Source of the DNA: Rhodocyclaceae bacterium
Lineage (GTDB): Bacteria > Pseudomonadota > Gammaproteobacteria > Burkholderiales > Rhodocyclaceae
NCBI GenBank assembly: GCA_013426785.1
Contig: JACDZI010000017.1
Span: forward strand, 1 to 50,441
Direction of reading: 5' to 3'
DNA length: 50,441 nucleotides
A program made the position numbers and the translations under genes. This document shows, in pieces, positions 22 through 49,011 of this stretch (positions are counted from its first letter, which is position 1; the number at the start of each line of letters is the position of its first letter). The notes below the pieces were generated by a model that did not search any database, had not been told where the DNA came from, and was given only the letters and a program-made list of their open reading frames with translations.

Positions 22-44
22 AAAAGTCGGCGTTGGCGAGACGG
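22..44 (+). repeat. Dispersed 23 bp repeat, copy 1
   Basis: Four A followed by a core that matches the window consensus GTCGGCGCTGGCGGGACGG at 17 of 19 positions. It ends exactly where the first usable GTG of the YheT-like gene begins. The hydrolase frame stays open through it to the window edge, so the repeat could be either leader or coding DNA. Confidence 0.8.
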
Positions 45-1033
45 TGGTGACGGGCAGTCGAGACAGCTTGCTCCCCTATCGGGCGCCGCACTGGCTGCCC
101 GGCGGCCACGCCCAGACGATCTGGCCGTTGCTGCTCAGGGCCGCGTCGCCGGCCTACCGGCGCGAGCGCTGGGAGACCCCCGATGGCGACTTCATCGACC
201 TCGACTGGCGCGCTGCGCCGGCCGGCTCCCCCCTGGTGCTGCTGTTCCACGGCCTCGAAGGCAGCTCGGCGAGCCACTACGCGACCGCGCTGATGGCGGC
301 TTTGTCCGCCCGCGGCTGGGCGGGGGTGGTGGCGCATTTTCGAGGCTGCTCGGGTGAGCCGAACCGCCTGCCGCGCGCCTACCATTCGGGCGATGCGGCC
401 GAGATCGACTGGATCCTGCGCCGCCTGCGCGAGCGGCATCCCGGCCGGCCCCTGTACGTGGTCGGCGTGTCCCTGGGCGGCAACGCGCTGCTCAAATGGC
501 TCGGCGAGCAAGGGGAAGCCGCCGGGGCGGTCATCGATGCCGCCGCTGCGGTATCGGCGCCACTCGACCTCATGGTCAGCGGGCCCGCGCTCGGGCGCGG
601 TTTCAATCGCCTCTACACCTGGCGCTTCCTGCGGACCCTGAAGCCGAGCGCGGCGGAAAAGCTGGCGCGTTTCCCCGGCCTGTTCGACGGTGCCCGCCTG
701 GCGCGGGCGCGCAACCTGCACGATTTCGACGATGTGGTCACCGCGCCGCTGCACGGTTTTCACGACGTGGCCGACTACTGGCGGCGCGCCTCGTCCAAGC
801 CCTTCCTGTCAGGCATTCGCGTGCCGACCCTGGTGCTCAACGCCCGCAACGATCCCTTCCTGCCGGCGCATGCGCTGCCGCGCCCGGATCAGGTATCCGC
901 CTCAGTAACGCTGGAGCAACCACGGGAGGGCGGCCATGTCGGATTCGTCAGCGGGGCCTGGCCGGGACGGCTCGACTGGCTGCCGCAGCGCCTGCTGCGG
1001 TTCTTCGCATGCGCCGGGAATAATCATGATTAA
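44..1033 (+). CDS. YheT-family alpha/beta-hydrolase
   Basis: A 329-residue alpha/beta-hydrolase of the YheT/ABHD1-3 family (esterase-like, substrate unknown). The N-terminal block WLPGGHAQTIWP is characteristic of the family. The nucleophile elbow GVSLGGN puts Ser143 as nucleophile; Asp270 (NARNDPF) and His298 (GGHVGF) complete a plausible triad, and LFHGLEGS near residue 68 would form the oxyanion region. No signal peptide or membrane segment is seen, so it is probably cytoplasmic. The start is uncertain: GTG at 44 or 47 abuts a dispersed repeat, and the frame has no stop back to base 1, so the true start may lie outside the window. The family assignment is strong; the physiological role is unknown. 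Confidence 0.88.
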   Translation: MVTGSRDSLLPYRAPHWLPGGHAQTIWPLLLRAASPAYRRERWETPDGDFIDLDWRAAPAGSPLVLLFHGLEGSSASHYATALMAALSARGWAGVVAHFRGCSGEPNRLPRAYHSGDAAEIDWILRRLRERHPGRPLYVVGVSLGGNALLKWLGEQGEAAGAVIDAAAAVSAPLDLMVSGPALGRGFNRLYTWRFLRTLKPSAAEKLARFPGLFDGARLARARNLHDFDDVVTAPLHGFHDVADYWRRASSKPFLSGIRVPTLVLNARNDPFLPAHALPRPDQVSASVTLEQPREGGHVGFVSGAWPGRLDWLPQRLLRFFACAGNNHD

Positions 1034-1066
1034 ATCGCCGGGCACGACAACTTCAGGAGAGCGAAC

Positions 1067-1639
1067 ATGAGTGTGACCCTGCTGGTGATCCTCGGCATCG
1101 TGGTGGTGCTGGCCCTCTACGGCGTGACGACCTACAACCGCCTCGTGGCGATCAAGCATGCGGTCGACAAGGCGTGGGCCAACATCGACGTGCTGCTCAA
1201 GCAGCGGCATGACGAACTGCCCAAGCTGGTCGAGGTGTGCAAACAGTACAAGCAGTTCGAGCAGCAGACCCTGCAGCAGGTGGTCGAGGCGCGCTGCCGC
1301 GTGCAGGCGGCGCGCGAGACACAGGACATCGCGGCGCTCGGCGCGGCGGAGGGCATGCTGCGTGCCGGGCTGGGCCAGATCTTCGCGGTGGCCGAGGCTT
1401 ATCCCGAACTGCGTGCCAACGAGAGCTTCATGCAGTTGCAGGGGCGCATCAGCCAACTGGAGGATGCCATCGCCGACCGGCGCGAGTTCTACAACGAGTC
1501 GGTGAACATCAACAATGTGCGCATCGAGCAGTTTCCGGATTCGGTCATCGCCGGCATGTTCCGCTTCGATGCCAAGCCCCTGCTGAAGTTCAGTGCCACC
1601 CAGAAGAGTGACGTCGACCTGAAACAACTGTTTAGCTGA
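1067..1639 (+). CDS. LemA family protein
   Basis: A 190-residue LemA-family protein. One N-terminal membrane segment (about residues 3-22) is followed by a helical, coiled-coil-rich body. Conserved LemA landmarks are visible: YNRLVAIKHAVDKAWANID after the membrane segment, LRANESFMQLQ in the middle, and RREFYNESVNINNVRIEQFP near the C-terminus. The family function is not established; members are envelope proteins often paired with other membrane proteins. A GA-rich RBS (aggagag) precedes the ATG. The next gene, a GIDE-like membrane protein, starts 5 bp after this stop, so the two are almost certainly co-transcribed and may work together at the inner membrane. Confidence 0.9.
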   Translation: MSVTLLVILGIVVVLALYGVTTYNRLVAIKHAVDKAWANIDVLLKQRHDELPKLVEVCKQYKQFEQQTLQQVVEARCRVQAARETQDIAALGAAEGMLRAGLGQIFAVAEAYPELRANESFMQLQGRISQLEDAIADRREFYNESVNINNVRIEQFPDSVIAGMFRFDAKPLLKFSATQKSDVDLKQLFS

Positions 1640-1643
1640 GGCC

Positions 1644-2534
1644 ATGCTGGTCCGCCTGCGCCACGGCTACCGCCAGTGGCTCGTCTCCGGCGGTTACCTG
1701 CTGCTGGTCTTCGTTGGCGCCCAGATCGACGATCCGCTGGGCTGGCGTTGGTGCGCCGTCGCCATCGCCCTGCTGGCACTGGTCGCCTGGGTGATGACCC
1801 TGCGCCGCGCGCGGGTGGTGGCCGACACGCCGACCTCCGCGATCGCTTCGGCAGCGCAGGGCTATGTCGAACTGCTCGGCAGCGGCGTGGCGCTGGCCGG
1901 CACGCCCCTCATGACGCCGCTGCGGCCGATGCCCTGCCTGTGGTATCGCTACCGGGTGGAGCGCAAGCAGGACGACAAGTGGGTCACGGAAAGCAGCGGT
2001 GAGTCGACCGACTCCTTCCTGATCGACGACGGCAGCGGCCAGTGCGTGGTCGATCCCGAAGGCGCCGAGATCCTGCCGCGCGACAAGCAAACCTGGACCG
2101 AGGGCGATTACCGCTACACGCAGGCGACCCTGGTGGCCGGCGAGCCGATCTACGTGCTGGGCAATTTCCGCACCTGGGGTGGCGACAACCTGGTCCTCGA
2201 TACGGACGAAGACGTCAAGTTCCTGCTGGCCGAATGGAAGAAGGACATGCCCAAGCTGCTGGAACGTTACGACCTCGATGGTGACGGCAGCCTCGACATG
2301 CGCGAATGGCAACTGGCCCGCTCGCAGGCGCGCCGCGATGTCGCGCGCAACCATCGCGAACTGCGGGCGGCGCCCGACACGCACATGATCGGATTGCCGG
2401 AAGCCGGGCGCCTGTTCCTGATTTCCTCGCTGCCGCCGGAAAAGCTTGAACGCTATTACCTGCGCTGGGCCTTCGCCCACGTCACCATCTTCATCGGCGC
2501 GCTGGCGGGCTTCGCCTGGCTACGGCAGTTCTGA
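1644..2534 (+). CDS. Membrane protein, GIDE-like region with EF-hand
   Basis: A 296-residue protein with two membrane segments near the N-terminus (roughly residues 14-28 and 35-52) and one at the C-terminus (about 272-292). The stretch from about 70 to 200 (the block LRPMPCLWYRYRVERK, then FLIDDGSGQCVVDPEGAEI, then GEPIYVLGNF) matches the organisation of GIDE domains, known from the eukaryotic mitochondrial E3 ligase MUL1 and from bacterial LemA neighbours. There is no RING finger here. A canonical 12-residue EF-hand loop, DLDGDGSLDMRE, sits at about residues 210-221 with Asp at positions 1, 3, 5 and 9 and Glu at 12, so calcium binding is likely. The gene is coupled to lemA. The role is unknown; a membrane-stress or envelope function is only inference. 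Confidence 0.75.
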   Translation: MLVRLRHGYRQWLVSGGYLLLVFVGAQIDDPLGWRWCAVAIALLALVAWVMTLRRARVVADTPTSAIASAAQGYVELLGSGVALAGTPLMTPLRPMPCLWYRYRVERKQDDKWVTESSGESTDSFLIDDGSGQCVVDPEGAEILPRDKQTWTEGDYRYTQATLVAGEPIYVLGNFRTWGGDNLVLDTDEDVKFLLAEWKKDMPKLLERYDLDGDGSLDMREWQLARSQARRDVARNHRELRAAPDTHMIGLPEAGRLFLISSLPPEKLERYYLRWAFAHVTIFIGALAGFAWLRQF

Positions 2535-2559
2535 CCCCGTAGTCGTGGCTCAATCTGCA

Positions 2560-2582
2560 TAAAGTCGGCTCTGGCAGGACGG
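2560..2582 (+). repeat. Dispersed 23 bp repeat, copy 2
   Basis: Core GTCGGCTCTGGCAGGACGG, 17/19 to consensus. It shares the CTCTGG variant only with the copy at 3078. It lies 25 bp after the stop of the GIDE-like gene and on the left side of the restriction-enzyme fragment. Confidence 0.85.
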
Positions 2583-2605
2583 CGGGAGTCGGCCATCAAG
2601 AGACA

Positions 2606-3077: not shown

Positions 3078-3100
3078 AAAAGTCGGCTCTGGTAGGACGG
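3078..3100 (+). repeat. Dispersed 23 bp repeat, copy 3
   Basis: Core GTCGGCTCTGGTAGGACGG, 16/19 to consensus and 18/19 to the copy at 2560, in the same orientation. It lies 14 bp beyond the dnaE stop, on the right side of the restriction-enzyme fragment. Confidence 0.85.
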
Positions 3101-3114
3101 CATTCGCGGCTGGA

Positions 3115-6100
3115 TCAGCCGTAGATCACGCGCACGTTGGCGGGCGTCAGCCAGTCGTGTAATTCGGCGATCAGCGCATCTTCGAGACGCACGCGCCAGG
3201 TGTCGGGCAGTGTGAGTTCGGTTTCGGCTTCGGCATTCCGGTAGCAGATGCGCACCGGGCAGGCATTTTCCGTCGATCGGTAAGGTGACAGCAGGCTGCG
3301 CAAGTGGTTGGCGCTGGCGGCGCTGGTGTTGCCGTTCAGCGCCAGCTTGAGCACCCGGGCATAGCGCCCGCGCGCTTCGGCGAGCGTCATCAGCTTGTCG
3401 GCCGAGACGCGCAGCCCGCCGCTGTAATCGTCGCGCTGCACCTTGCCCTCGACCACCAGCAGTTCGTCTTCCTTGATCTTGCCGCGCTGGGCGTCCCACA
3501 GCTCGTTGAAGATCGATACTTCGACTTGCGCCGAGGCATCGTCGAGCATGACGATGGCCATCTTGCCGCGGCGGGTCATCTGCGTGCGTACGCCGAGGAC
3601 GATGCCGGCGAGCAGGGTCGGTTCCCGCTGCGGCTCCAGTTCGCCAAGGCGCCGTCTCACGAAAGCCGAGATTTCCCCGGCGCAGGCATTGAACGGATGG
3701 CCGGAGAGGAAGAAGCCGAGCGCCTGCTTCTCGTTGAGCAGTTGCTCGCGCTCGCTCCAGCGCGGCACGTCGAGGTAATGGGTTTGCGTGTCCACTGGCG
3801 CATCGGGTAGGTCGAACAGTCCGCCCTGGTGGGCGTTGCGTTCGGCCTGTTCCGCCGCTTCCAGGGCGCGGCTGGCCGAGGCCAGCAACTTGGCCCGATG
3901 GTTGTCGAGGCTGTCGAAGGCGCCGGCGCGGATCAGCGCCTCGATGACGCGGCGGTTGACGACGCGCTTGTCGATGCGCCGGCAGAAATCGAACAGGTCG
4001 GTAAAGGGGCCACTTTCGCGTGCCTTGAGGATGGCGCCGAGCGCGGATTCGCCGGTGCCCTTGATCGCGCCGAGGCCATAGCGGATGGTACGGCCGTCGA
4101 CCGGCCGGAAGCGCACGGTGCCGGTGTTGATGTCGGGCGGCAGGAAGGCGATGCCATTCTCTTTCGCGTCGTTGAAAAAGAACTGGACCTTGTCGGTGTC
4201 GGCCATTTCCGACGACAGCGTGGCGGCCATGAAGGCGGCCGGGTGGTGGCACTTGAGCCAGGCGGTGTGGTAGGCGACCAGCGAGTAGGCGGCGGCGTGC
4301 GACTTGTTGAAGCCGTAGCCGGCGAACTTCTCCATGGTGTCGAAGATCTCGTTCGCCTTCGCTTCGTTGATGGCGTTTTCCGCTGCGCCCTTGACGAAGA
4401 TCTGGCGCTGCAGTGCCATCTCCTCCGGCTTCTTCTTGCCCATCGCCCGGCGCAGCAGGTCGGCGCCGCCGAGCGAGTAGTTGGCGGCTACCTGCGCCGT
4501 CTGCATCACCTGTTCCTGGTACACCATGATGCCGTAGGTGTTGGTCAGCACCTTTTCGAGGCTGGGATGCGGATAGAGCACGCGCTCGCGGCCGTGCTTG
4601 CGGGCGATGAAGCTGGGGATGAAGTCCATCGGGCCGGGTCGGTAGAGCGCGTTCAGGGCGATCAGGTCTTCCAGGCAATCGGGCCGCGCCTGCACCAGCG
4701 TGTCCTTCATGCCGCGCGATTCGAACTGGAATACCGCCGTGGTGTTGGCCGTCTTGAAGACGTTTTCGTAGGTGTCCTTGTCGTCGAGCGGCAGGTCGTC
4801 GAGGCGAATGTCGACGCCTTCCACCTTCTTCACGAAATCCACCGCTTCGGCCAGGATCGTCAGCGTGCGCAGGCCGAGGAAGTCGAACTTCACCAGCCCG
4901 GCTTTTTCAACGTCGTCCTTGTCGAACTGGCTGACCGTTATGACACGTTCGGCGCCGCCATCGGTCGCATAGAGCGGGCAGAAGTCGGTGAGTTTGCCTG
5001 GTGCGATCAGCACGCCGCCGGCGTGCATGCCGACGTTGCGCGTCAGGCCTTCAAGCTTCTCGGCCAGCGTCCACAGTTCGCGCAAGCCTTCCTCCTGCGC
5101 CAACCGCTCGTTGATCGCCGGTTCCTTCTCGCGCGCGTCTTTGAGCGTGATGCCCAGTTCATTGGGGATTTGTTTGGCGAATTGGTCGACGAAGTTGAAG
5201 CCGAGGTCGAGCACGCGACCGACATCGCGGATGACCGCCTTCGCCGCCATGGTGCCGAAGGTGACGATCTGCGAGACGGCGTGCTGGCCGTAGTGCTGGC
5301 GCACGTACTCGATCACCCGGTCGCGGCCTTCCTGGCAGAAGTCGATGTCGAAGTCGGGCATCGACACGCGCTCGGGGTTGAGGAAGCGTTCGAACAGCAG
5401 GTCGTAACGCAGCGGGTCGAGGTCGGTGATGCCGAGGCTGTAGGCCACGAGGGAGCCGGCACCTGAGCCGCGCCCCGGTCCGACGGGAACGGGAGGAACA
5501 GCTTTGTGTTTGCCCCAGTTGATGAAGTCGGCGACGATCAGGAAGTAGCCGGGGAAGCCCATCTGGATGATGGTCTGGATCTCGAAGTCGAGCCGCTCGC
5601 CGTACTGCGGGCGCCGACTTTCCCGCTCGGCCGGGTCGGGGTAGAGGTGGGCGAGGCGCTTCGCCAGCCCGGCCTTGGCCTGCTCGGCCAGCAGGTCATT
5701 GATGGTCATGCCCGGTGGGGTGGGGAACTCCGGCAGACGGCTCTTGCCGAGTTCGACGCTCAGGTTACAGCGCTGGGCGATGGCGATACTGTTGGCCAGC
5801 ACATCAGGCAGGTCGGCGAACAGTTCGGTCATTTCCGCCTGCGTCTTGAAGTATTGCGCCTCCGTGTACAGCTGCGGCCGGCGCTTGTCGCCCAGCACAT
5901 AGCCCTCCGCGATGCACACCCGCGCCTCATGGGCGCGGAAATCGTCGGCATCGAGGAACTGCACCGGATGCGTGGCAACGACCGGCAAGTCGAGGCTTGA
6001 TGCCAGTTGCAGGGTCGCGGCAATCAGGCGTTCTTGCGCGGGGTGATTGGCCTCGCCGTTGGGTCGCTGGATTTCGAGATAGAAATTGCCGGGAAACAGG

Positions 6101-6594
6101 GTGGCCCAGTCTTGCGCGGCGGCGGCGGCTTTCTCGGCCTTGTCGGCGATAAGCCACTGGCCCACGTCGCCCAGTTGTGCGCCGGACAGCGCGATCAAGC
6201 CGGTGTTATCGCCGGCGACTAAAGCTTCGCGCGGAATTTCGGCCCGTCCATGGCGGCGCGGACGCAGATAGGCGGTCGACAGCAGTTCGCACAGACGCAG
6301 GTAGCCACCGCGATCCTTCGTCAGCAGCAGCAGCCGTGTGGTCGCCTCGCGGCCGGGATCGAGGGCATGGTCTTCGGCGATCCAGACATCGGCACCGATG
6401 ATCGGCTTGATGCCCGCGCCGCGTGCCGCCGTATAGAACTTGACCATACCGAACAGGTTGGCGAGGTCGGTGAGCGCGAGGGCGGGCATTTGATCTGCCG
6501 CCGCCCGTGCCACGGCATCATCGAGGCGGGTCAGGCCGTCGGTGATCGAGTATTCGCTGTGGAGACGGAGATGGACAAAGCAGGGGAGGGACAT
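3115..6594 (-). CDS. dnaE: DNA polymerase III subunit alpha
   Basis: The replicative polymerase alpha subunit, 1159 residues, the usual DnaE1 length. The N-terminal PHP domain starts with HLRLHSEYS. The C-family polymerase core is shown by the block GPGRGSGAGSLVAY and by PDFDIDFCQEGRDRVI at about residues 400-420, which carries two of the catalytic aspartates. The C-terminal part holds the OB-fold region (LLAGIVLGVRTQMTRRGKMA). It follows the MBL-fold gene by 24 bp on the same strand and may be transcribed with it. A degenerate copy of the window's dispersed repeat falls inside the coding sequence at 5600-5622, where the protein reads RESRRPQYGERL, an alignment-neutral stretch. The gene looks intact. 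Confidence 0.97.
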   Translation of the reverse strand: MSLPCFVHLRLHSEYSITDGLTRLDDAVARAAADQMPALALTDLANLFGMVKFYTAARGAGIKPIIGADVWIAEDHALDPGREATTRLLLLTKDRGGYLRLCELLSTAYLRPRRHGRAEIPREALVAGDNTGLIALSGAQLGDVGQWLIADKAEKAAAAAQDWATLFPGNFYLEIQRPNGEANHPAQERLIAATLQLASSLDLPVVATHPVQFLDADDFRAHEARVCIAEGYVLGDKRRPQLYTEAQYFKTQAEMTELFADLPDVLANSIAIAQRCNLSVELGKSRLPEFPTPPGMTINDLLAEQAKAGLAKRLAHLYPDPAERESRRPQYGERLDFEIQTIIQMGFPGYFLIVADFINWGKHKAVPPVPVGPGRGSGAGSLVAYSLGITDLDPLRYDLLFERFLNPERVSMPDFDIDFCQEGRDRVIEYVRQHYGQHAVSQIVTFGTMAAKAVIRDVGRVLDLGFNFVDQFAKQIPNELGITLKDAREKEPAINERLAQEEGLRELWTLAEKLEGLTRNVGMHAGGVLIAPGKLTDFCPLYATDGGAERVITVSQFDKDDVEKAGLVKFDFLGLRTLTILAEAVDFVKKVEGVDIRLDDLPLDDKDTYENVFKTANTTAVFQFESRGMKDTLVQARPDCLEDLIALNALYRPGPMDFIPSFIARKHGRERVLYPHPSLEKVLTNTYGIMVYQEQVMQTAQVAANYSLGGADLLRRAMGKKKPEEMALQRQIFVKGAAENAINEAKANEIFDTMEKFAGYGFNKSHAAAYSLVAYHTAWLKCHHPAAFMAATLSSEMADTDKVQFFFNDAKENGIAFLPPDINTGTVRFRPVDGRTIRYGLGAIKGTGESALGAILKARESGPFTDLFDFCRRIDKRVVNRRVIEALIRAGAFDSLDNHRAKLLASASRALEAAEQAERNAHQGGLFDLPDAPVDTQTHYLDVPRWSEREQLLNEKQALGFFLSGHPFNACAGEISAFVRRRLGELEPQREPTLLAGIVLGVRTQMTRRGKMAIVMLDDASAQVEVSIFNELWDAQRGKIKEDELLVVEGKVQRDDYSGGLRVSADKLMTLAEARGRYARVLKLALNGNTSAASANHLRSLLSPYRSTENACPVRICYRNAEAETELTLPDTWRVRLEDALIAELHDWLTPANVRVIYG
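5600..5622 (-). repeat. Degenerate dispersed-repeat match inside dnaE
   Basis: On the minus strand the core is 15/19 to consensus (GTCGGCGCCCGCAGTACGG) and is preceded by GAAA. It is the weakest member and could be chance, but it sits in a variable stretch of dnaE and keeps both conserved ends of the element. Confidence 0.4.
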
Positions 6595-7576: not shown

Positions 7577-7599
7577 AAAAGTCGGCAGTGGCGGGACGG
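7577..7599 (+). repeat. Dispersed 23 bp repeat, copy 4
   Basis: AAAA followed by GTCGGCAGTGGCGGGACGG, 17/19 to consensus, in the 47 bp gap between the soxB stop and the start of the MBL-fold gene, antisense to both. Confidence 0.85.
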
Positions 7600-7616
7600 C
7601 GATTATGCCAGCCCGG

Positions 7617-9332
7617 CTAAGCTATTCCCGGATTGCCGGCGATGCCAATCAGCTTAGGTGTATTGAGTTTTCGGGGCGTGATCGTCTTCTTGTTGCGCAG
7701 CCAGGTACTGACCACCTCCCAGATCGGCTCGCCCGTGGCGCCTTCGGCGACCGGCGCCCAGCCGGCCACCTTGTATTTCTTGCCCGCTTCGAGGGGTTTG
7801 CCATGCAGGCGCATGTCCTGGATGCGCTTGCCGATCTTCGCATTCGGGTCGCAGGCATACGCAAGCCCGCCGACGCGCACCATGTCGCCGCCCTGCTGGT
7901 AATAGGGGTCGGGGTTGAACAGGTTGTCGCAGACATCTTCGAGGATCATCTTGATCTGCTCGCCGCTCATCTCGGTCAGCGTCGAGGCGGGGTAGGTGAT
8001 GGCGGTCTGATCCATGACATGCTCGAAGGTGATGGTTTGCCCCGGCAGGATGGTCGTGCCCCAGCGGAAGCCGGGCGAGAAGGCGAGGTCGGCGCCTTTC
8101 ACTTCCATCAGCGCGTCGACGATGAGCTGGTCCCAGCTGCCGTTGAAGTTGCCGCGGCGGTAGAGCAGACCTTCGGAGACGGCGAGTTTTTCTTCGAGTT
8201 TGCCGAGATAGGGGGCACGGATCTTGTCGATCAGCGCTGCCATTTCCGCATCGGCCGGCAGGAGATTGGAGAACACCGGCAGCAGCTTGTAGCGGAAGTC
8301 TGAAACCTTCCCGCCCTTGACGTCGAAGTCCAGCACGCCGAGGAACTTGCCGTTCGAGCCGGCGTTGGTGACCAGCGTGACGCCGCCCTGGTTCTGCACC
8401 TTGACCGGCTGCGGCACACCGTCATGCGTGTGGCCGCCGAAAATGGCGTCGATGCCGGTGACGCGCGCGGCTATCTTGAGGTCGACGTCCATGCCGTTGT
8501 GCGAGAGTACGACGACGACCTGCGCGCCGGCAGCGCGGGCCTCGTTGACGACCTTTTGCATTTCCTCGTCCTGGATGCCGAAGGTCCAGTCGGGCACCAT
8601 CCAGCGCGGGTTGGCGATAGGGGTGTAGGGGAAGGCCTGGCCGACGACGGCGACCTTCACGCCGTTCATTTCGCGCAGCGCATAGGGCTTGAACACCGGG
8701 TCGCCGAAATCGGTGGTCTTGACGTTCTGGGCGAGGAATTCGATCTTGCCGGCGAAGTCTTTTTCGACAATTTGCTTGACCCGCTCATGACCCAGCGTGA
8801 ATTCCCAGTGGGGGGCCATCATGTCGACGCCGAGCAGCTTGCAGGCATCGACCATGTCCTGCCCCTGGGTCCATAGCGCCGTACCCGAGCCCTGCCAGGT
8901 GTCGCCACCGTCGAGCAACAGGGCAGATGGGCGGCTGGCGCGCAGTTGCTTGACCAAGGTGGCGAGGTGGGCGAAACCGCCGACCTGCCCGTAGGTCTTT
9001 GCCGCCTGAGCGAAATCGAGATAGGTGAAGGCGTGCGCCTCGCGTCCGCCCGGTTTGATGCCGTAGGTTTTCAGCAGTTTTTCGCCGACCAGGTGGGGAG
9101 TCTTGCCGAGCGCACTGCCGATACCGATATTGACGTTCGGTTCGCGGAACCAGATCGGCAGCAGTTGCGCATGGCAGTCGGTGAAGTGCAGGAAATGTAC
9201 GTTGCCGAAATGCGGGACGTCGTATAGTCGCTCGCCGCCCTGCGCGGCCAGCACGGAGCGGGAATCGAGGGCAAACCCGGCGGCCGAGGCGGCAGCCAGG
9301 ATCTGCAGGAATTCGCGGCGGTTCATGGACAT
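7617..9332 (-). CDS. soxB: Thiosulfohydrolase SoxB
   Basis: SoxB, a dimanganese enzyme of the 5'-nucleotidase/calcineurin-phosphatase fold, hydrolyses the terminal sulfone from cysteine-S-sulfonate on SoxY, releasing sulfate in the periplasm. The 571-residue product has the usual length. A twin-arginine signal (NRREFLQILAAASAAG) targets it for folded export by Tat. The metal-binding start HFTDCHAQLLP is at about residues 49-59, and GGHTHDGVPQP carries further His ligands near residue 300. The upstream ATG at 9332 is preferred: AAGGA lies 6 bp ahead of it; an alternative ATG is two codons inside. A strong hairpin with a T-run separates it from soxX, so its expression may be lower than, or independent of, soxYZAX. 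Confidence 0.95.
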   Translation of the reverse strand: MSMNRREFLQILAAASAAGFALDSRSVLAAQGGERLYDVPHFGNVHFLHFTDCHAQLLPIWFREPNVNIGIGSALGKTPHLVGEKLLKTYGIKPGGREAHAFTYLDFAQAAKTYGQVGGFAHLATLVKQLRASRPSALLLDGGDTWQGSGTALWTQGQDMVDACKLLGVDMMAPHWEFTLGHERVKQIVEKDFAGKIEFLAQNVKTTDFGDPVFKPYALREMNGVKVAVVGQAFPYTPIANPRWMVPDWTFGIQDEEMQKVVNEARAAGAQVVVVLSHNGMDVDLKIAARVTGIDAIFGGHTHDGVPQPVKVQNQGGVTLVTNAGSNGKFLGVLDFDVKGGKVSDFRYKLLPVFSNLLPADAEMAALIDKIRAPYLGKLEEKLAVSEGLLYRRGNFNGSWDQLIVDALMEVKGADLAFSPGFRWGTTILPGQTITFEHVMDQTAITYPASTLTEMSGEQIKMILEDVCDNLFNPDPYYQQGGDMVRVGGLAYACDPNAKIGKRIQDMRLHGKPLEAGKKYKVAGWAPVAEGATGEPIWEVVSTWLRNKKTITPRKLNTPKLIGIAGNPGIA

Positions 9333-17328: not shown

Positions 17329-18182
17329 TGGCCGATCGCCTGGTCAGCGCCGAAACACTGGCTGCCCACGTTGATGATCCGGCCTGGCGCGTCTTCGACT
17401 GCCGCCACGACCTGAAAAATACCGCCTACGGCGAGCAGGCCTATGCCAAGGGCCACATCCCCGGCGCCCTGTTCCTGCACCTCGACCGCGACCTGTCGGG
17501 GCCCATGACCGGCAGCAACGGTCGCCACCCCTTGCCTGACATTGAGTGCTTCGCGGCGCTGATGTCGGCCTGCGGGGTTGGCCCCGACACCCAGGTGGTC
17601 GCCTACGACAACGAGGGCAGTGTTTTCGCCGCCCGCCTGTGGTGGATGCTGCGCTGGCTCGGTCACGACAATGTGGCCGTGCTCGACGGCGGCTTGCCCG
17701 GCTGGCGGCGCGCCAAGCTGCCGCTCGAAACCGACGTCCGCTCGGTGCAGCCGGCACAGTTTCTTCCCCGCCCACGCGACATCAAGGTCGATGCCACCTA
17801 TGTGCTGGCACACCTGCGTAGTCCAGACATGCTGCTGATCGATGCGCGCAGCGAGGATCGCTATGCTGGCGAGAACGAAACCCTTGATCCGGTCGGCGGC
17901 CATATTCCCGGCGCGCGCAATCGCTTCTTTGGCGAAAACCTCGACGATGCCGGTTGCTTCTTCAAGCCGGTCGAAGCGCTGCACGCTGAGTTTGCCGACC
18001 TGCTTGACGGCCGCGATCCGCGCAGCGTCGTCCAGCAGTGCGGCTCGGGCGTGACCGCCTGCCACAACCAGCTGGCGATGGAGATTGCCGGACTGACTGG
18101 TTCCCGGATCTACCCCGGTTCATGGAGCGAGTGGTGCAGCGATCCGTCGCGGCCCGTTGCGACCGGGGATCAGCCGGGATAG
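17328..18182 (+). CDS. sseA: 3-mercaptopyruvate sulfurtransferase
   Basis: A two-domain rhodanese of 284 residues. The C-terminal domain carries the persulfide-forming cysteine in CGSGVTA (Cys238); this loop, with Ser rather than charged residues after CG, marks mercaptopyruvate sulfurtransferases rather than thiosulfate rhodaneses. The N-terminal domain has the family blocks FDCRHDL and YDNEGSVFAARLWWMLRWLGH but no catalytic Cys. No signal peptide is seen, so it is cytoplasmic. The gene is coupled to the STAS-like gene and converges with queG, overlapping it by 13 bp at the 3' end. A link to the Sox system is not implied by position alone. Confidence 0.9.
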   Translation: MADRLVSAETLAAHVDDPAWRVFDCRHDLKNTAYGEQAYAKGHIPGALFLHLDRDLSGPMTGSNGRHPLPDIECFAALMSACGVGPDTQVVAYDNEGSVFAARLWWMLRWLGHDNVAVLDGGLPGWRRAKLPLETDVRSVQPAQFLPRPRDIKVDATYVLAHLRSPDMLLIDARSEDRYAGENETLDPVGGHIPGARNRFFGENLDDAGCFFKPVEALHAEFADLLDGRDPRSVVQQCGSGVTACHNQLAMEIAGLTGSRIYPGSWSEWCSDPSRPVATGDQPG

Positions 18183-28830: not shown

Positions 28831-28841
28831 GAGAGGGGCGC

Positions 28842-29924: not shown

Positions 29925-29935
29925 GGCAGGCAGAC

Positions 29936-30562
29936 ATGAAACGCGAACAAGGTTTCATCCTCTTCATTGCACTCACCATGCTGGCCTTGATGACGATCAT
30001 TGCCCTTGCACTGGTGCGCGCCGTGGATACGACCAACGAGGTGGCGAACAATATCGGCTTCGTCCAGTCCACGCTGATTTCCAGCGATAGCGGTCTTGAG
30101 GCCGCCACGACCTGGCTGCAGGGCAACCCGGGTCTTCTGAACGCGGATGACGACACGAATGGTTACTATGCGCGCGATGTCGAATTGCTGGCCACCAACC
30201 AGTTGATCGACTACACCGGCAGTGCCTCGCCGGGTAACGTAAACGACGATGTCGATTGGGACAATACCGGCAACGGACCCTATAAGGTCAAACTGCATGC
30301 CGCCGCCGATACGGCCGGCAACCAGATTGCCTACATCATCCACCGCCTGTGCGATGCCTACGGCTCACCGGGGGCCAGCGGTGTGCGTTGCGCCCGCATG
30401 AGTCTGAGCGCGACCGGGGGCGCATCGAAAAGCGGTGCCGGCGGCTATGGCAGCCTGGCCATTTCGACCAAATCGCAAATCTATTACCGGATCACCACCC
30501 GGGCCAAGGGCCCACGCAATACGGCCAGTTTCACCCAGGCCACCATTGTCATCGAATATTGA
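29936..30562 (+). CDS. pilX: Type IV pilus assembly protein PilX
   Basis: A 208-residue PilX protein. REQGFILFIALTMLALMTII is the type III-like segment, with Leu/Phe rather than Glu at position 5, as is common in PilX. NIGFVQSTLISSDSGLEAATTWL follows, then a globular part with a Cys pair. It works with PilW and PilV. The product is encoded 11 bp after pilW and 12 bp before pilY1. Confidence 0.9.
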   Translation: MKREQGFILFIALTMLALMTIIALALVRAVDTTNEVANNIGFVQSTLISSDSGLEAATTWLQGNPGLLNADDDTNGYYARDVELLATNQLIDYTGSASPGNVNDDVDWDNTGNGPYKVKLHAAADTAGNQIAYIIHRLCDAYGSPGASGVRCARMSLSATGGASKSGAGGYGSLAISTKSQIYYRITTRAKGPRNTASFTQATIVIEY

Positions 30563-30574
30563 ACGGGGACCACC

Positions 30575-33500: not shown

Positions 33501-34822
33501 ACGTGAAGACCCCGGGGTTCAACTATGCCGACTCGGGTTACGCCAGCTATAAAACCACCACCCGCCAGGGTATGGTCTATGTGGGCGCCAATGATGGCTT
33601 CTTACATGCCTTCAATGCCGATACCGGATCTGAAGTGTGGGCTTACGCACCCAGCGCGGTAATGCCCAATCTGTGGCGGCTTGCCGATCCTGCGTATAGC
33701 CACAGGTTCTATGTGGATGGCACCCTGACGGCCGCCGATGTGAAGGATTCCGGCTGGAAAACCATCCTCGTGGGAGGCATGAACGATGGCGGCAAGCATT
33801 ACTACGCTTGGGATGTCACGCTGCCAGCCTCCCCTGAACTGCTTTGGGAGTTCACGGATACCGACATGGGCTTTACCTACGGCAACCCGGTCGTCACCAA
33901 GCTGGCCGATGGCAGTTGGGTGGTATTGCTCACCTCCGGTTACAACAATGCCAGCGGTAAAGGTTGCCTCTATGTTCTCGATGCAATCACCGGCGCTGAA
34001 AAGATGTCAAAAATATGCGTCAGTGGCGGATCATCAACCAGCCAGATCGGCCTGGCGAAGATTGCCAACTGGGTGGATGACTTGATGGTCAATAATACGA
34101 CCAAGTATGTTTATGGCGGCGACCTGAATGGCGACATGTGGCGTTTCGACCTCGATGCTGGCACAGTCACTTTGCTGGCTTCGGTAGGTGAACCGATCAC
34201 GACCCGACCCGAACTGGCCGAGGTCAAGGACAAGCGTGTCGTCTTGTTCGGCACCGGCTTGTTCCTACAGGGCGCCGATCGAACCGATGCGGATGATCGG
34301 GCTATCTATGCCATCAAGGACGATGGTACGACCTACTATTCGAGCGTCAAGGGTAACAGGCAATTTGTTGAGCAAACGTATACCGCGACCGGCAGTACCC
34401 GAACACTTTCAAGCTATCCAGTGGATTGGGACTCCCGGGGAGGTTGGTATATCCCCCTGCCGGATAGCGGCGAGCGCGTCAACGTCGATCCGAAGATCCA
34501 GCTGGGCACCATGGTAATTGCCTCAAACGTTCCAACGACAGTGGGCGCCAATACCTGTACCGTCGGCGGCTATGCCTGGATCAACTACATCGATTTTGCT
34601 ACCGGTTCCGATGTCAAGAACATCAATGGAGAGACCATCTATCCTTCGCTAAAGATTGAAGGTGCGCTCGCGGTCGGTGTCAACATCGTCCGACTCCCCG
34701 ACGGTAAGGTTGTTGCCATTATCACGACGGCTGACAACCGCCACCCGGTGACGGAAGTTCCCGTCGGCGTAGGCAGCAGCAAGGCGCGGCGGATCTCGTG
34801 GCGGGAGATCATCAACAACTGA
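30575..34822 (+). CDS. pilY1: Type IV pilus tip adhesin PilY1
   Basis: A 1415-residue PilY1/PilC-type protein: Sec signal (SALCIGSVLVGTQAHS), a von Willebrand A region whose MIDAS motif DDSGSMN is at about residue 53, and a C-terminal quinoprotein-like beta-propeller (about 1000-1340; YVGANDGFLHAFNADTGSEVW, DLNGDMWRFDLDAGT). The rest of the vWA fold (FANWFSYYRGRLLMTKSAI) appears only at about residue 530, so ~470 residues are inserted after the MIDAS. At about 205-285 this insert contains a segment resembling repeats in phage tail proteins (YLSVGQVVSIDDVS ... FNGRFVITAVPTATTFTY). PilY1 proteins mediate adhesion, surface sensing and pilus extension. The terminator after the stop also overlaps the tRNA-Thr promoter. 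Confidence 0.93.
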   Translation: MRHFLRLLKSALCIGSVLVGTQAHSYDVLDISAEPLGTGTGLSVKPNLWFILDDSGSMNSTFTPDYVSSSICSTNMSAPGSTYDCGIGDAPYMAAGFNKSYYNPAITYTPPVDSSGTSLGNATPTAAKGNAFQYPGASSPVTTSCYSTAYSNIGSHGNKVCDLTTKFPHRYYCKSGVAVSTANCVEPQTGTPYAYPNGTYLYRVAGTVSVSRKSNEATIETAAPHYLSVGQVVSIDDVSVGPGVSTEGEGTGNSFNGRFVITAVPTATTFTYLNAGPYTEKTPDTDGSVYWTPDGAPYYYVMSGSPIWCSDKGLTNCPGTKWSSTNKYPRFGWGGAVEGVASAVTVTVTKAGGSGCDLDRWWLPCRVTTIMVDSRGANELLLYEPTSDRSQRVSVGTTDNNATRQHLADEIMWAINLSGRFEATPTVSCSGRGTNCQPKFIVTAPPGATAAQTATTGNDTFNNKTLTITDNSANITTTVSNNGRFSGGKNYQASSAGVTFTRYDIVPGNTFPKAATRTDCAGATCNHTEELQNFANWFSYYRGRLLMTKSAIARAFKDVNDASPGIGFRVGFSVISVGTSNPQGSFAELGIADFNASQRSSFYSKLFAITPNSGTPLRTALSRAGQMYAGNLGTDPMQYSCQQNYTFLATDGYWNNDIELNTNFNMTREGPVGNADPSASTNAPYKDKRDQSDTLADIARYYYKNDLKTSVMDDVPKASGDETTDAKMWQHMKTFTMGLGVDGNLTFCSSYAAGCSADYNTILADGAKDWGNPITNPKSDRIDDLWHAAVNGHGQYFSAADPNDVADGIAKALAATEQQTGSAAAAATSNLEPVAGDNYAYVASYTTNVWDGNLEAKNINLSTGELSSSSVWSARDQLDTLAQGTGRIIYTYGDDPLTTPAVEKKKLMTWSRLTTAEQVYFNPAQMTACNPVANCPGATSEVLFDFITGKLDATTNSTFRVREHVLGDIVSSQPVYVKTPGFNYADSGYASYKTTTRQGMVYVGANDGFLHAFNADTGSEVWAYAPSAVMPNLWRLADPAYSHRFYVDGTLTAADVKDSGWKTILVGGMNDGGKHYYAWDVTLPASPELLWEFTDTDMGFTYGNPVVTKLADGSWVVLLTSGYNNASGKGCLYVLDAITGAEKMSKICVSGGSSTSQIGLAKIANWVDDLMVNNTTKYVYGGDLNGDMWRFDLDAGTVTLLASVGEPITTRPELAEVKDKRVVLFGTGLFLQGADRTDADDRAIYAIKDDGTTYYSSVKGNRQFVEQTYTATGSTRTLSSYPVDWDSRGGWYIPLPDSGERVNVDPKIQLGTMVIASNVPTTVGANTCTVGGYAWINYIDFATGSDVKNINGETIYPSLKIEGALAVGVNIVRLPDGKVVAIITTADNRHPVTEVPVGVGSSKARRISWREIINN

Positions 34823-34838
34823 TGGCCTGCGCGACAGT

Positions 34839-34869
34839 TTGATCTGTGAACAAATCGGGCGGTTATAAT
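34839..34869 (+). promoter_or_regulatory. Candidate tRNA-Thr promoter within hairpin
   Basis: A perfect TATAAT at 34864-34869 lies about 20 bp before the tRNA 5' end, in the loop of the pil-operon terminator hairpin. A -35-like TTGATC is at 34839-34844 with a long 19 bp spacer. The -10 box is convincing, the -35 weak. Confidence 0.6.
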
Positions 34870-34888
34870 CGCGCCCGATTTGTTTTTT
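34851..34888 (+). terminator. Intrinsic terminator of the pil operon
   Basis: An 11 bp perfect stem (34851-34861 pairs with 34872-34882; CAAATCGGGCG / CGCCCGATTTG), a 10-nt loop and a run of six T directly after. It lies 29 bp beyond the pilY1 stop and just ahead of tRNA-Thr. Confidence 0.85.
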
Positions 34889-34889
34889 C

Positions 34890-34965
<76 letters not shown>

Positions 34966-36349: not shown

Positions 36350-36352
36350 ACG

Positions 36353-36375
36353 CCGTCCTGCCGGCGCCGACTTTT
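36353..36375 (-). repeat. Dispersed 23 bp repeat, copy 8
   Basis: On the minus strand AAAA is followed by GTCGGCGCCGGCAGGACGG, 17/19 to consensus. It starts 3 bp after the purC stop. Confidence 0.85.
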
Positions 36376-42489: not shown

Positions 42490-45222
<2,733 letters not shown>

Positions 45223-45245
45223 CCCGCCGCCCGGACGCTCCCGTC

Positions 45246-45878
45246 ATGAATGACCGGGCTGCCGCCGTTCTTGCCACCGCGCGGGCCATCAACGCCGCCG
45301 GCATCAACCGCGGCACGGCGGGCAATGTCAGTGCCCGCTACGCGGACGGCTTCCTCATCACCCCCACCGGCATGGCTTACGAGGAATGCGTGCCGGAAGA
45401 CATGGCAACAGTCGGCGCTGGCGGCACGGCCAGCGGCCGGCGCCAGCCCTCGTCCGAATGGCGTTTTCACCACGACATCTATGCCGCACGGCCGGAGGCG
45501 GGCGCGATCATCCACACCCACGCGCCCTTCGCCACGGCGCTGGCCTGCCAGCAGATGGAAATCCCGCCCTTTCATTACATGATCGCGCGCTTTGGTGGCG
45601 CTTCGGTGCGCTGTGCCGCTTACGCCACCTTCGGCACCCAGGCGCTGTCCGACGCCGTCCTGATTGCGCTGGAAAGCCGGCGTGCCTGCCTGATGGGCCA
45701 CCATGGCATGGTCGTATTCGGCGGCGACCTCAAGGAAGCGCTGGCGCTGGCCATCGAACTGGAAAGCCTTTGCGAGCAATACTGGCGCGTGCTGCAACTG
45801 GGCCAACCCAGGCTGCTGCCCGCCGACGAAATGGCGCGGGTGATCGAAAAGTTCCGGGATTACGGGCGGCAGACCTAG
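45246..45878 (+). CDS. Class II aldolase/adducin family protein
   Basis: A 210-residue class II aldolase resembling L-fuculose-phosphate aldolase. Zinc ligands: the His-x-His in IIHTHAPFA (about residue 96) and a third His in LMGHHGMVVFGG; the catalytic Glu is in PSSEWRFHHDIY. The N-terminal block INRGTAGNVSARYADGFLITPTGM binds the phosphate. Substrate is not evident. A dispersed-repeat copy lies in the variable stretch DMATVGAGGTAS just ahead of PSSEW. It starts 23 bp after secA. Another repeat copy begins 7 bp after its stop. Confidence 0.85.
   Translation: MNDRAAAVLATARAINAAGINRGTAGNVSARYADGFLITPTGMAYEECVPEDMATVGAGGTASGRRQPSSEWRFHHDIYAARPEAGAIIHTHAPFATALACQQMEIPPFHYMIARFGGASVRCAAYATFGTQALSDAVLIALESRRACLMGHHGMVVFGGDLKEALALAIELESLCEQYWRVLQLGQPRLLPADEMARVIEKFRDYGRQT
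45407..45429 (+). repeat. Dispersed 23 bp repeat, copy 9, inside aldolase
   Basis: AACA followed by a core differing from consensus at one base (18/19; a C in place of G near the end). Read as TVGAGGT, the same frame as the tsaE copy, in a variable stretch. Confidence 0.65.
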
Positions 45879-45884
45879 GTTTCG

Positions 45885-45907
45885 CCGTCCTGCCAGCGCC
45901 GACTTTT
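45885..45907 (-). repeat. Dispersed 23 bp repeat, copy 10
   Basis: Minus-strand AAAA followed by an 18/19 match to the consensus core, in the 31 bp gap between the converging aldolase and hicB genes. Confidence 0.88.
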
Positions 45908-46940: not shown

Positions 46941-46994
46941 TCTTTAAGATGATCTGATCATCGTCGAGGTTCCGTAAATGCAACACTTTTGCCC

Positions 46995-48302
46995 ATGCTG
47001 ACCGATCTGACCATCCGCAACGCGCGGTCAGCCGAGAAGCCCTACAAGCTAACTGATGCTCACGGGCTGTATATCGAGGTGCGGCCGACCGGTTCTAAAC
47101 TGTGGCGTATACGCTACAGAATCGACGGCAAGGAAAACCTCTTCGCCCTCGGCGAATACCCCGCCAAACCGATTTCGGCCGACGAGAGTGAAGCAGACCG
47201 GGCGGCCCGATTGGAGCAGGGTATCTTCACCCTTCTGGAGGCCCGCGAGGCGCGTCTCAAGGCGCGTGCCTTGATCAAGCAGGGCGCGCATCCGGCGCGC
47301 GAGCGCAAGTTCGCGAACTTGCGCCGCCGTCTGGAAAACACTCAGAGTTTCGAAGCCGTCGCGAAAAACTGGATGGAAGAACATGGCAAGGAGTGGTCGG
47401 CCAACTATCGCTACAACATCGAGCAGAGCTTCAAGAAGAATGTGTATCCCTACCTGGGGACGATGAACATTGGTGCCATCAAACCGGTGCATGTGCTGGA
47501 TGTCATTGATCGCATCAAGGGGCGGTCGCCGACTGGCGCCAAGGTCGCGCGCATGTGGTTGGGCGGCGTGTTCCGTTTCGCGATACTCAGGCTGCTGATC
47601 GAGGACGATCCCACCTATCCGCTCAAGGGGCTGATCAAGCTGGCCAAGGTCAAGCACCATCGGCCACTCGACGCAAGGCATATCGGCGACTTCCTCAAGG
47701 TCATCGACCGGTTCGATGGCTGGCTGCCGACCCGGTTCGCCTGCCAACTGTTGTGGCTGACGCTGGTCAGAAAGAACGAGCTATTGAATGCCGAGTGGGC
47801 GGAGTTCGATCTCGAACAGGCCTTGTGGCGCATTCCCGGCCCGCGCATGAAAATGCGCGAAGATCATGGCGTGCCCTTGAGTCGCCAGGCGGTGGCGATC
47901 CTGCGGGAACTCCAGCCGATGACCGGCACGCACCCCTTTGTGTTCACCAGCCACATGAGCCATCGCCAGGCGCTGGGACGGGTGGCCATCCACAATGTGT
48001 TTCTGCGGACCGGCAAGGCGCTGCAGTTTGCCGAACGCTTTACCGCGCACGGCATTCGCTCCACGTTTTCGACCATCGCCAACGATGCCGGGGTTCGTCC
48101 CGACGTCATCGAGCGCTGCCTGGCGCATCAGGAACGCAATGCGACGCGCCGGGCCTACAACCGGGCGACGCTATTGGTGGAGCGCAAGGAAGTGATGCAG
48201 GGCTGGGCGGATCTGCTGGATGATTTCAGGCAGGGCAAGACGGAGATTTCGCTGGTGCCGCGTCAGGTCGCGTGCGCGGAGGTAAGGCCGAGCTTGGATT
48301 GA
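46995..48302 (+). CDS. Tyrosine-type site-specific recombinase
   Basis: A P4-type integrase of 435 residues. The N-terminal DUF4102 arm-binding domain starts LTDLTIRNARSAEKPYKLTDAHGLYIEV; a SAM-like core-binding region is around QSFEAVAKNWMEEHGKEWSA. The catalytic residues are all present: Arg in LVRKNELLNAEW, His/Arg in TAHGIRSTFST, His in LAHQERN and the Tyr nucleophile in RRAYNRAT. The ATG at 46995 is preferred over a TTG two codons earlier. No tRNA adjoins it. Direct and inverted repeats upstream may be its binding sites. It probably mobilised the downstream dinJ-yafQ and porin genes. Confidence 0.9.
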   Translation: MLTDLTIRNARSAEKPYKLTDAHGLYIEVRPTGSKLWRIRYRIDGKENLFALGEYPAKPISADESEADRAARLEQGIFTLLEAREARLKARALIKQGAHPARERKFANLRRRLENTQSFEAVAKNWMEEHGKEWSANYRYNIEQSFKKNVYPYLGTMNIGAIKPVHVLDVIDRIKGRSPTGAKVARMWLGGVFRFAILRLLIEDDPTYPLKGLIKLAKVKHHRPLDARHIGDFLKVIDRFDGWLPTRFACQLLWLTLVRKNELLNAEWAEFDLEQALWRIPGPRMKMREDHGVPLSRQAVAILRELQPMTGTHPFVFTSHMSHRQALGRVAIHNVFLRTGKALQFAERFTAHGIRSTFSTIANDAGVRPDVIERCLAHQERNATRRAYNRATLLVERKEVMQGWADLLDDFRQGKTEISLVPRQVACAEVRPSLD

Positions 48303-48393
48303 ATACTTTGCTAGGCTGCGAGCAATGGTTGATGATGCAATGACATTTTTTGCGGCACGGATTTTTATCCGAGCCCTTTTAACTCAAGGCGTT

Positions 48394-48422
48394 TTGTGGC
48401 TTAATTGAGCTACAAACCACAA
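48394..48422. promoter_or_regulatory. Candidate dinJ-yafQ operator
   Basis: A near-palindrome TTGTGGCT / AGCTACAA with a 6-nt centre (7 of 8 pairs), plus a second half-site CCACAA that pairs with the first TTGTGG. It ends at the AAGGAG ribosome-binding site of dinJ, so bound antitoxin could block both transcription and initiation. Confidence 0.5.
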
Positions 48423-48432
48423 GGAGAAGACC

Positions 48433-48693
48433 ATGGCCGCCACTGCATTTGTACGTGCAAGAATCGATGAGTCCCTGAAGGAAGAGGCTGCTGTCGTGCT
48501 GGCGGAGATGGGGCTGACCGTCTCCGATGTGGTGCGTATCGTGTTGACCAAGGTGGCCAGGGACAAGGCGCTGCCTTTTGAGATGCGCATCCCTAATCAG
48601 CTCACTGCCGCAACGCTGGCCAAGAGCGAGCGTGGCGAAGATGTGCGCCACGCCAAGGATGCCAACGACCTGTTTGAGCAACTGGGCATCTGA
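48433..48693 (+). CDS. dinJ: DinJ/RelB-family antitoxin
   Basis: An 86-residue antitoxin. The N-terminal ribbon-helix-helix (AATAFVRARIDESLKEEAAVVLAEMGLTVSDVVRIVLTKVARD) binds DNA as a dimer; the C-terminal part (AKSERGEDVRHAKDANDLFEQLGI) wraps the toxin. AAGGAG lies 6 nt ahead of the ATG. Its stop overlaps the yafQ start by one base (TGATG). Confidence 0.9.
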   Translation: MAATAFVRARIDESLKEEAAVVLAEMGLTVSDVVRIVLTKVARDKALPFEMRIPNQLTAATLAKSERGEDVRHAKDANDLFEQLGI

Positions 48694-48965
48694 TGCGCCA
48701 GCCGGATTACTCGGGCCAGTTCAAGCGCGACGTGAAGCTATCGCAAAAGCGCGGCAAGGACATGGACAAGCTCAAAACGCTGCTGGGTCTGCTCATTGAG
48801 GGGATGCCGCTGCCGGCGGTGTATCTCGAGCATCCGCTCCAAGGCGACTGGCAAGGCTTTCGGGATGCGCACATCGAGCCTGATTGGCTGCTGATCTACA
48901 AGATCAAGGGTGATGTGGTGCGTTTCGAGCGCACCGGCCGGCATACGGACTTGTTCGCCGAATAA
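48693..48965 (+). CDS. yafQ: YafQ-family mRNA interferase toxin
   Basis: A 90-residue YafQ/RelE-fold toxin that cleaves mRNA on the ribosome in known members. Expected catalytic and structural residues are seen: His in YLEHPLQGDW, His/Asp/Trp in DAHIEPDWLLIYK and His/Phe in TGRHTDLFAE. It is the second gene of the module and the sequence is intact. A dispersed repeat follows 23 bp after the stop. Confidence 0.9.
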   Translation: MRQPDYSGQFKRDVKLSQKRGKDMDKLKTLLGLLIEGMPLPAVYLEHPLQGDWQGFRDAHIEPDWLLIYKIKGDVVRFERTGRHTDLFAE

Positions 48966-48988
48966 TAGATACCGATCCGGTAGGGTCG

Positions 48989-49011
48989 CCGTCCCGCCAG
49001 CGCCGACTGTT
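48989..49011 (-). repeat. Dispersed 23 bp repeat, copy 12
   Basis: Minus-strand AACA-type tract followed by a perfect 19/19 core, between the yafQ stop and the porin terminator, so within the putative mobile element. Confidence 0.85.

Follow-up and report, generated by a model that had tools for sequence, protein, structure and literature searches.

According to a 2025 paper, the Pasteurellaceae and the Neisseriaceae are the only bacterial families known to have uptake sequences, and a 2026 survey of terminators (PMC13020248), in the part of it available, describes uptake motifs for the same two. For the uptake signal sequences (USS) of the former and the DNA uptake sequences (DUS) of the latter, the accessible portions of the literature describe a lack of orientation bias along the chromosome, an origin by point mutation, the existence of dialects and, according to some authors, an even spacing (PMC1939737, PMC3630211, PMC2346458). 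Here we describe a 24-bp dispersed repeat in a 50,441-nucleotide stretch of DNA from a Rhodocyclaceae bacterium (assembly GCA_013426785.1, contig JACDZI010000017.1, positions 1 to 50,441; the window in the following), and we propose, with a probability of roughly 0.6, that it acts as an uptake-sequence-like mark of self DNA. Such a mark would probably have evolved independently, with a minor pilin of the type IV system as its reader. To the fuller proposal, namely that the Rhodocyclaceae hold a third and independent case of self-recognition by uptake sequences, with a two-ended 24-bp mark, at least four dialects in eight genera, a ComP- or FimT-type pilin as reader and mostly no recognisable ComEA, we would give about even odds.

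A preliminary description of this DNA, made from the letters of the window, knew of no described element with this sequence. Our searches agree with it: the core sequence was not found in open-licence papers, nothing in the open-licence literature paired a DNA uptake sequence with Rhodocyclaceae, papers on transformation or competence in Rhodocyclaceae were, by their listing, off-topic, and broader searches of the open-licence papers likewise listed none that treats it.

The repeat unit and its copies in the window

The repeat unit, AAAAGTCGGCGCTGGCGGGACGGC, is non-palindromic and was derived from 47 ungapped matches (the window plus 30 loci of the same genome). Four A's, each conserved in 91-96% of these copies, precede a 19-bp core, a C follows it in 91%, and the flanks beyond are not conserved, which corrects the 23 bp first assigned to the unit to 24 bp (four A's, 19-bp core and C). 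The core looks too uniform in this set because the 30 loci had been picked for a perfect core. In a logo built from 109 copies in 395 kb outside the window the information amounts to 36.8 bits; within the core it is lowest at positions 14, 15, 13 and 7 (0.8-1.0 bits), followed by 1 and 8. Variation had at first been placed at core positions 7-9 and 13; positions 7, 8 and 13 are indeed among the least informative, but so are 14, 15 and 1. Compared with its own reverse complement the 24-mer matches at 6 of 24 positions and thus does not have the palindromic or inverted-repeat structure of repetitive extragenic palindromic (REP) sequences, bacterial interspersed mosaic elements (BIME) or miniature inverted-repeat transposable elements (MITE), as was already supposed when an ordinary REP hairpin was discounted.

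All twelve copies listed in the preliminary description were recovered, eleven as the 19-bp core at ≤3 mismatches and the twelfth, at 46618 on the minus strand, with the 1-base deletion ascribed to it. The eleven core matches at ≤3 mismatches compare with 0.09 expected, and this number was reached in 0 of 100 dinucleotide shuffles. A comparison with shuffled sequence of the same codon use had been suggested as a check; shuffles of codon blocks of the window gave a mean of 0.10 and a maximum of 1 (100 shuffles). A weaker 15/19 core match, at 5600 on the minus strand, was found as described, and the gene that holds it is dnaE. The sites are as follows, with mismatches counted against the 24-mer.

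22-45, plus strand: repeat copy, 3 mismatches, directly before a hydrolase gene (called 68-1033)
2560-2583, plus strand: repeat copy, 3 mismatches, 26 bp past the end of the called gene 1644-2534
3078-3101, plus strand: repeat copy, 3 mismatches, 14 bp past the end of dnaE (3115-6594, minus strand)
5599-5622, minus strand: degenerate match within dnaE, core 15/19, 5 mismatches
7577-7600, plus strand: repeat copy, 2 mismatches, 17 bp past the end of soxB (7617-9332, minus strand)
18934-18957, plus strand: repeat copy within queG (18170-19195 as called, minus strand), 3 mismatches, alignments gapped in 14/14 relatives
19366-19389, plus strand: repeat copy within tsaE (19202-19726, plus strand), 3 mismatches, gap-free in 18/19 relatives with a small gap in G006
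24338-24361, plus strand: repeat copy within ileS near its 3' end, 1 mismatch
36352-36375, minus strand: repeat copy, 2 mismatches, 3 bp past the purC stop codon
45407-45430, plus strand: repeat copy within a class II aldolase gene (45201-45878, plus strand), 2 mismatches
45884-45907, minus strand: repeat copy, 1 mismatch, 6 bp past the aldolase stop codon
46617-46639, minus strand: repeat copy with a 1-base deletion
48988-49011, minus strand: repeat copy, 1 mismatch and perfect core, flanked by a small called gene and a porin gene

Distribution over genomes and dialects

In the whole genome to which the window belongs (3.24 Mb, 241 contigs) we identified 754 core matches at ≤3 mismatches, 382 forward and 372 reverse, compared with 8 for the reversed pattern. 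The copies extend beyond the segment, in line with the genome-wide family that had been suspected, and such over-representation of a short non-palindromic motif throughout a genome is shared with USS and DUS. Core matches were similarly numerous in 17 of 18 congeners (402-781), the exception being G005 with 7. Other genera of the family were represented by 18 single genomes, of which two reached 724 and 808 and the other 16 had 6-32; 24 genomes from other families of the order had 0-32, and the genome with 32 gave 29 in the reversed control.

A search for the 24-mer at ≤3 mismatches in 395 genomes of the family (reversed control 0-1), from genera which we infer to belong to the Rhodocyclaceae, showed it to be abundant in the six genera g1, g2, g9, g62, g70 and g88. 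Two of these, g9 and g62, are represented by one genome each, while counts were high in all genomes of g1 except G005 and in all of g2 except G277 (17). Low counts of 16-28 were noted in G064, G086 and G097, and 0-8 in the remaining genomes; G005 has 0 matches genome-wide and no word of the repeat kind in 151 kb. With a degenerate pattern, applied to 71 family genomes from 68 genera, counts were clearly raised in g1, g2, g9, g11, g62, g69, g70 and g88 and near the control in most of the 68 genera, including 14 in G005 with 6 in its control. Mildly raised counts in G064 (88), G277 (45), G065 (36) and G107 (29) were not taken to mark bearers of the repeat, and no motif was found in 100 kb of G064 or in 20 kb of G065.

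Outside the family, the degenerate form at ≤1 mismatch, a pattern that would miss dialects like that of the congener G016, had ≤9 matches in each of 386 genomes, which represent 50 other families of the order. The maximum of 9 belongs to G475, in which eight sites resemble two Rhodocyclaceae dialects (contigs C5, C8, C23, C34, C45, C56 and C67); these are possibly tracers of transferred DNA or of assembly contamination. The best named relatives of the window's dnaE come from 'Rhodocyclaceae bacterium RHDC1' (72%) and from a metagenome-assembled genome (MAG) of Betaproteobacteria (73%). The locus of this MAG has one AAAAGTCAGTTCCTGCGGGACGGC site, and none of the remaining named dnaE loci (80 in the set) had a site at ≤5 mismatches. 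MAG records titled 'Bordetella parapertussis' (L040, 59%) and 'Akkermansia muciniphila' (L075, 53%) are also among the dnaE relatives, and at least the second title seems misapplied. An origin of the repeat from phages or plasmids was considered and not adopted. The exact 24-mer occurs in 23 stretches of 2.9 million viral contigs, and for 16 of these stretches the available part contains one match only at ≤3 mismatches. A phage search with a 39-base query, too short for strong inference, gave no match, and a plasmid search with a 7.2 kb query returned mostly conserved genes.

Other genera of the family carry related dialects, AAACTCGGCGCTGGCGGGGCGGC, AAAAGTCAGTC...ACGGC and AAAAGTCGACGCTGG...ACGG. 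When 60 kb samples were screened without a seed, G028 gave AAAAGTCAGTC and G086 gave AAAAGTCGACG as the strongest word, and the logos read aAAAGTCAGTCnccgCggcACGGC for G028 (34 sites, 153 kb) and AAAAGTCGACGCTGGggatACGGt for G086 (13 sites, 78 kb). The logo of G016, whose dialect was first found among near-matches, is nAAACTCGGCGCtGGCGgGGCGGC (19 sites, 100 kb), and at the position orthologous to the ileS site this congener carries its own dialect. The 24-bp frame is common to all dialects, as is most of both ends, AAAAGTC (AAAACTC in G016) and ACGGC (GCGGC in G016). Clade-specific dialects with a conserved part are likewise found in USS and DUS.

Two observations on dialect genomes may be added. 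One stretch of G028 (L114:1851-1883), in which two inverted dialect copies overlap, is hairpin-like and has a T-run, and thereby resembles the terminator pairs of DUS. In G016 another word besides the dialect, ATGCCAGACA / TGTCTGGCAT, is over-represented as well, with 10 copies per 100 kb sampled against an expectation of about 0.1 (L150, L259-L262).

Placement, strand and spacing

A 445 kb portion of the window's genome contains 117 sites with ≤5 mismatches, 61 on one strand and 56 on the other. The numbers of sites with 0 to 6 mismatches are 20, 42, 24, 18, 3, 10 and 7 (reversed control 0 at ≤4, 1 at 5 and 1 at 6); they drop sharply at 4, and the small tail beyond could consist of decayed or other-dialect copies. 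Intergenic copies make up 48 of the 117, though 12% of the sequence is non-coding, and 69 lie within called genes. The gene calls come from a home-made codon-score script that missed tsaE, therefore at least one 'intergenic' copy (19366) is genic and the intergenic count is somewhat too high. Within genes the copies are distributed over the five fifths, from 5' to 3', as 9, 9, 11, 17 and 16.

A large part of the intergenic copies (30 of 45 at ≤4 mismatches) is located ≤60 bp from the 3' end of a gene, several of them using the gene's TAA stop codon within the A-tract, and copies are frequent in convergent gaps (11 of 45 in 3.5 of 44 kb, ≤5 mismatches). This placement is what one would expect of transcription terminators or of RNA elements at 3' ends. 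A terminator role is disfavoured by the orientation of the copies near 3' ends, 15 in each direction, and by the weak folding of the reverse-complement unit (-2.6 kcal/mol), and the high share of copies inside genes does not fit it either. An RNA element was rejected as well, as Rfam at gathering scores finds only tRNA in the window. Of the explanations considered here we regard this one as the least probable.

Orientation along a chromosome was followed in the congener G017, whose 2.74 Mb chromosome is complete; the positions used are those among the matches listed, 100 of 121 per strand. Over the first 2.25 Mb at least 98 plus and at least 99 minus copies are interspersed among these matches (walk range 12, shuffle P 0.93). 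Successive 250-kb bins hold 33, 20, 28, 18, 19, 31, 22, 9 and 17 of the listed copies, with near-equal strands in each bin. The repeat thus shows no orientation bias on this chromosome, the position of its origin not being located, and resembles USS and DUS in this regard.

Chi and the FtsK orienting polar sequences (KOPS) are strongly oriented to replication. A recombination or segregation signal of this type is brought to mind by the octamer GCTGGCGG within the main dialect, which we take to be one base off the Chi sequence of E. coli, GCTGGTGG. The interspersion of repeat copies on both strands argues against it, and so do the dialects, across which the two ends of the unit are best kept while the G028 dialect loses the octamer. 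We consider such a signal very unlikely, if slightly less so than a terminator.

Another explanation, also raised in the preliminary description, is a chromosome-organising site bound by a nucleoid protein. Such a cytoplasmic DNA-binding protein would need many spread sites, and the dialects would result from drift of that protein. The genome-wide occurrence of a long, high-information motif that is maintained between species agrees with this, as does its fairly even spacing in the window's genome, where 107 copies (≤4 mismatches) are more evenly placed than random ones (coefficient of variation (CV) 0.76; 2 of 99 gaps <300 bp with 7.8 expected). Moreover, no competence genes would be needed, and ComEA was mostly not found. 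The lack of orientation bias along the G017 chromosome counts against this explanation, as do copies in all nine of its 250-kb bins (9 to 33 per bin among the matches listed) and counts near the control in most of the 68 genera and in the congener G005, though unknown dialects could be missed there. We hold a chromosome-organising site to be unlikely, yet the most serious of the alternatives. An argument from even spacing was also made for USS and, in the part of the source available, is disputed (PMC1939737).

Substitution versus insertion

Syntenic stretches of 20 relatives were aligned around ileS and tsaE. For the copy in tsaE, gap-free alignments were obtained with 18 of 19 relatives. The ileS copy was compared in 20 relatives, of which 13 are ungapped, five show small balanced gaps and two carry 27 or 30 additional bases. 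A larger set comprised 58 copies (two of them without any comparison) and 751 syntenic comparisons. The orthologue keeps the motif in 361 of these, and the 390 motif-free comparisons include 114 without gaps; the net gap is small and in phase in 161 and ≥18 bp in 33, and other gaps are seen in 82. Among repeat-bearing genomes, with G016 left out, conservation was 0.780 in motif columns and 0.758 in flanks (661 pairs); against the repeat-free G005 it was clearly lower in the motif, 0.609 vs 0.712 (28 pairs). These comparisons share orthologues and hence are not independent. Judged by the tsaE and ileS copies, the repeat appears to arise and decay by point mutation, in and between genes, as USS and DUS do.

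A relic of a mobile element or of a REP-like family, spread by insertion, was among the first suggestions, and the dispersal of hundreds of copies with intergenic enrichment would suit it. The net gaps ≥18 bp, the gaps at the queG copy in 14/14 relatives and the extra bases at the ileS copy in two relatives would suit it too, the queG copy itself being not judgeable. It is nevertheless disfavoured: the unit is non-palindromic, copies share no flank, A-tracts are built from TAA stop codons, and the copies in tsaE and ileS change mostly without a change in length, with a different dialect at the orthologous ileS site. The mismatch distribution, which falls sharply at 4 and has a small tail, also speaks against such a relic. 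We therefore see insertion as an improbable origin of the repeat, close to the Chi- or KOPS-like signal in standing.

A proposed uptake-sequence-like mark and its possible reader

Uptake sequence was one of the three functions originally suggested, and it is the one that fits best because the repeat has dialects, lacks a strand bias and changes mostly by substitution in place. In the mechanism we propose, a type IV minor pilin on the cell surface, ComP-like or FimT-like, would bind the motif on extracellular DNA and pull this DNA in. Incoming DNA that bears the motif would recombine preferentially and so push near-matches towards the preference of the receptor. Copies would accumulate where proteins tolerate them, namely at permissive codons and immediately downstream of stops. 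A change of the receptor would let the entire genome drift to a new dialect. The window contains a candidate for the receptor in a minor-pilin operon, which together with a following tRNA gene spans 27435-34965.

27435-27857, plus strand: type IV minor pilin, candidate receptor, with a Pfam ComP_DUS domain (36.8 bits, cut-off 27.3)
27824-34822, plus strand: remainder of the type IV minor-pilin operon, composed of the following five genes
27824-28420, plus strand: GspH/FimT-like pilin
28375-28830, plus strand: PilV
28842-29924, plus strand: PilW
29936-30562, plus strand: PilX, assigned by place only, with no family match
30575-34822, plus strand: PilY1
34890-34965: tRNA-Thr, after the operon

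Elsewhere in the window, a phage-type integrase gene (46989-48302; PF00589, Arm-DNA-bind_3) lies between the repeat copies at 46617 and 48988. A porin gene (49077-50105, minus strand) is located near it, and the region is possibly the edge of an integrated element.

Competence genes were compared in 33 genomes, 15 repeat-bearing and 18 repeat-poor, with G064 grouped with the 15 though not deemed a bearer. ComEC was found in 33/33, and the ComP-family pilin of the window has relatives in 33/33 as well, some over its first part only, so the repeat is not explained by this pilin being present. The ComP_DUS cut-off was passed by 19 pilins of relatives, chosen since they cluster with the window pilin, and four of these are from repeat-poor genomes; a 20th pilin, from the window's genome (PF00114), was below the cut-off. 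The clustering comprised 147 pilin-like proteins of 11 genomes, eight of them repeat-bearing and three repeat-poor; the proteins were taken from the matches listed and cover the genomes in part, with three from the window's genome and four from G016. Among these matches one group of two members (G026, G079) is confined to bearers.

Several results weigh against an uptake function. Both ComEC and the ComP-family pilin are also present in repeat-poor genomes and therefore neither follows the repeat, and no pilin group among the matches listed was both common to all repeat-bearing genomes and exclusive to them. Of the 15 repeat-bearing genomes one, G105, has a ComEA match above the curated cut-off, compared with 5 of the 18 repeat-poor ones. 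A weaker match in 11 repeat-bearing genomes is located in a frame of 781-1000 aa, which is Tex in the one checked (G017), and in three repeat-bearing genomes there was no match at all, the Tex type included; the ComEA search may not be exhaustive because even the Tex-type match is missing in these three. As far as sequence can tell, the uptake machinery appears to be partly present, and the missing recognisable ComEA is a real weakness of the proposal. To these results are added the gapped alignments of the queG copy, the 33 long net gaps, which come from 8 of the 58 copies, and a higher share of gaps in motif columns (14%) than in flanks (6%). The repeat is also less dense (about one per 4 kb) and longer than DUS or USS. 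Inverted pairs, which often form terminators in the case of DUS, are not enriched, with 10 of 107 copies having a partner at ≤9 mismatches (control 84/1000) and with one true pair. In G017 the sparser subset of copies at ≤2 mismatches has a spacing CV of 1.23, therefore even spacing is not general, though short gaps are scarce there too (8 gaps <1 kb, 16.5 expected).

If the repeat is an uptake mark, it would suggest DNA exchange by transformation with a built-in preference for kin. With several dialects among close relatives, a third and unrelated case would allow molecular drive to be tested against benefit, and changes of dialect could be linked to changes of receptor in a fresh lineage. 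Should it serve another function, a long genome-wide mark with dialects would still need explaining.

Comparison with known systems

By analogy the repeat would work like an uptake sequence, and it is a candidate member of that class. With REP sequences, BIME, MITE and other dispersed repeats it has in common the many scattered copies and their intergenic enrichment, but it is without palindrome or clear insertion signature and often lies within genes. Chi and KOPS are over-represented, non-palindromic and genome-wide like the repeat, and the main dialect contains the Chi-like octamer; the repeat differs from both in its length of 24 bp and in having no chromosome orientation.

The extended USS of Pasteurellaceae is a long motif with an A-tract beside its core, an architecture that the repeat shares. 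Sequence and bacterial class are different, and the USS core has 9-10 bp, whereas the repeat has 24 bp with information at both ends. Copies of USS lean to gene ends according to the available part of one source (PMC2346458), and here the later fifths of genes are richer; an origin by point mutation, as given in the accessible text of another (PMC1939737), is a further likeness.

From the DUS of Neisseriaceae, whose receptor is ComP, the repeat is set apart by an unrelated sequence, a length of 24 bp instead of 10-12, inverted terminator pairs that are not enriched and a receptor that is a candidate only. Both are non-palindromic and present in very many copies, on both strands and in genic as well as intergenic positions, and both form clade dialects with a conserved part. 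Stray copies of a foreign dialect, as in the eight G475 sites of two dialects, also have their counterpart in the 'peregrine DUS' described in the part available of PMC3630211.

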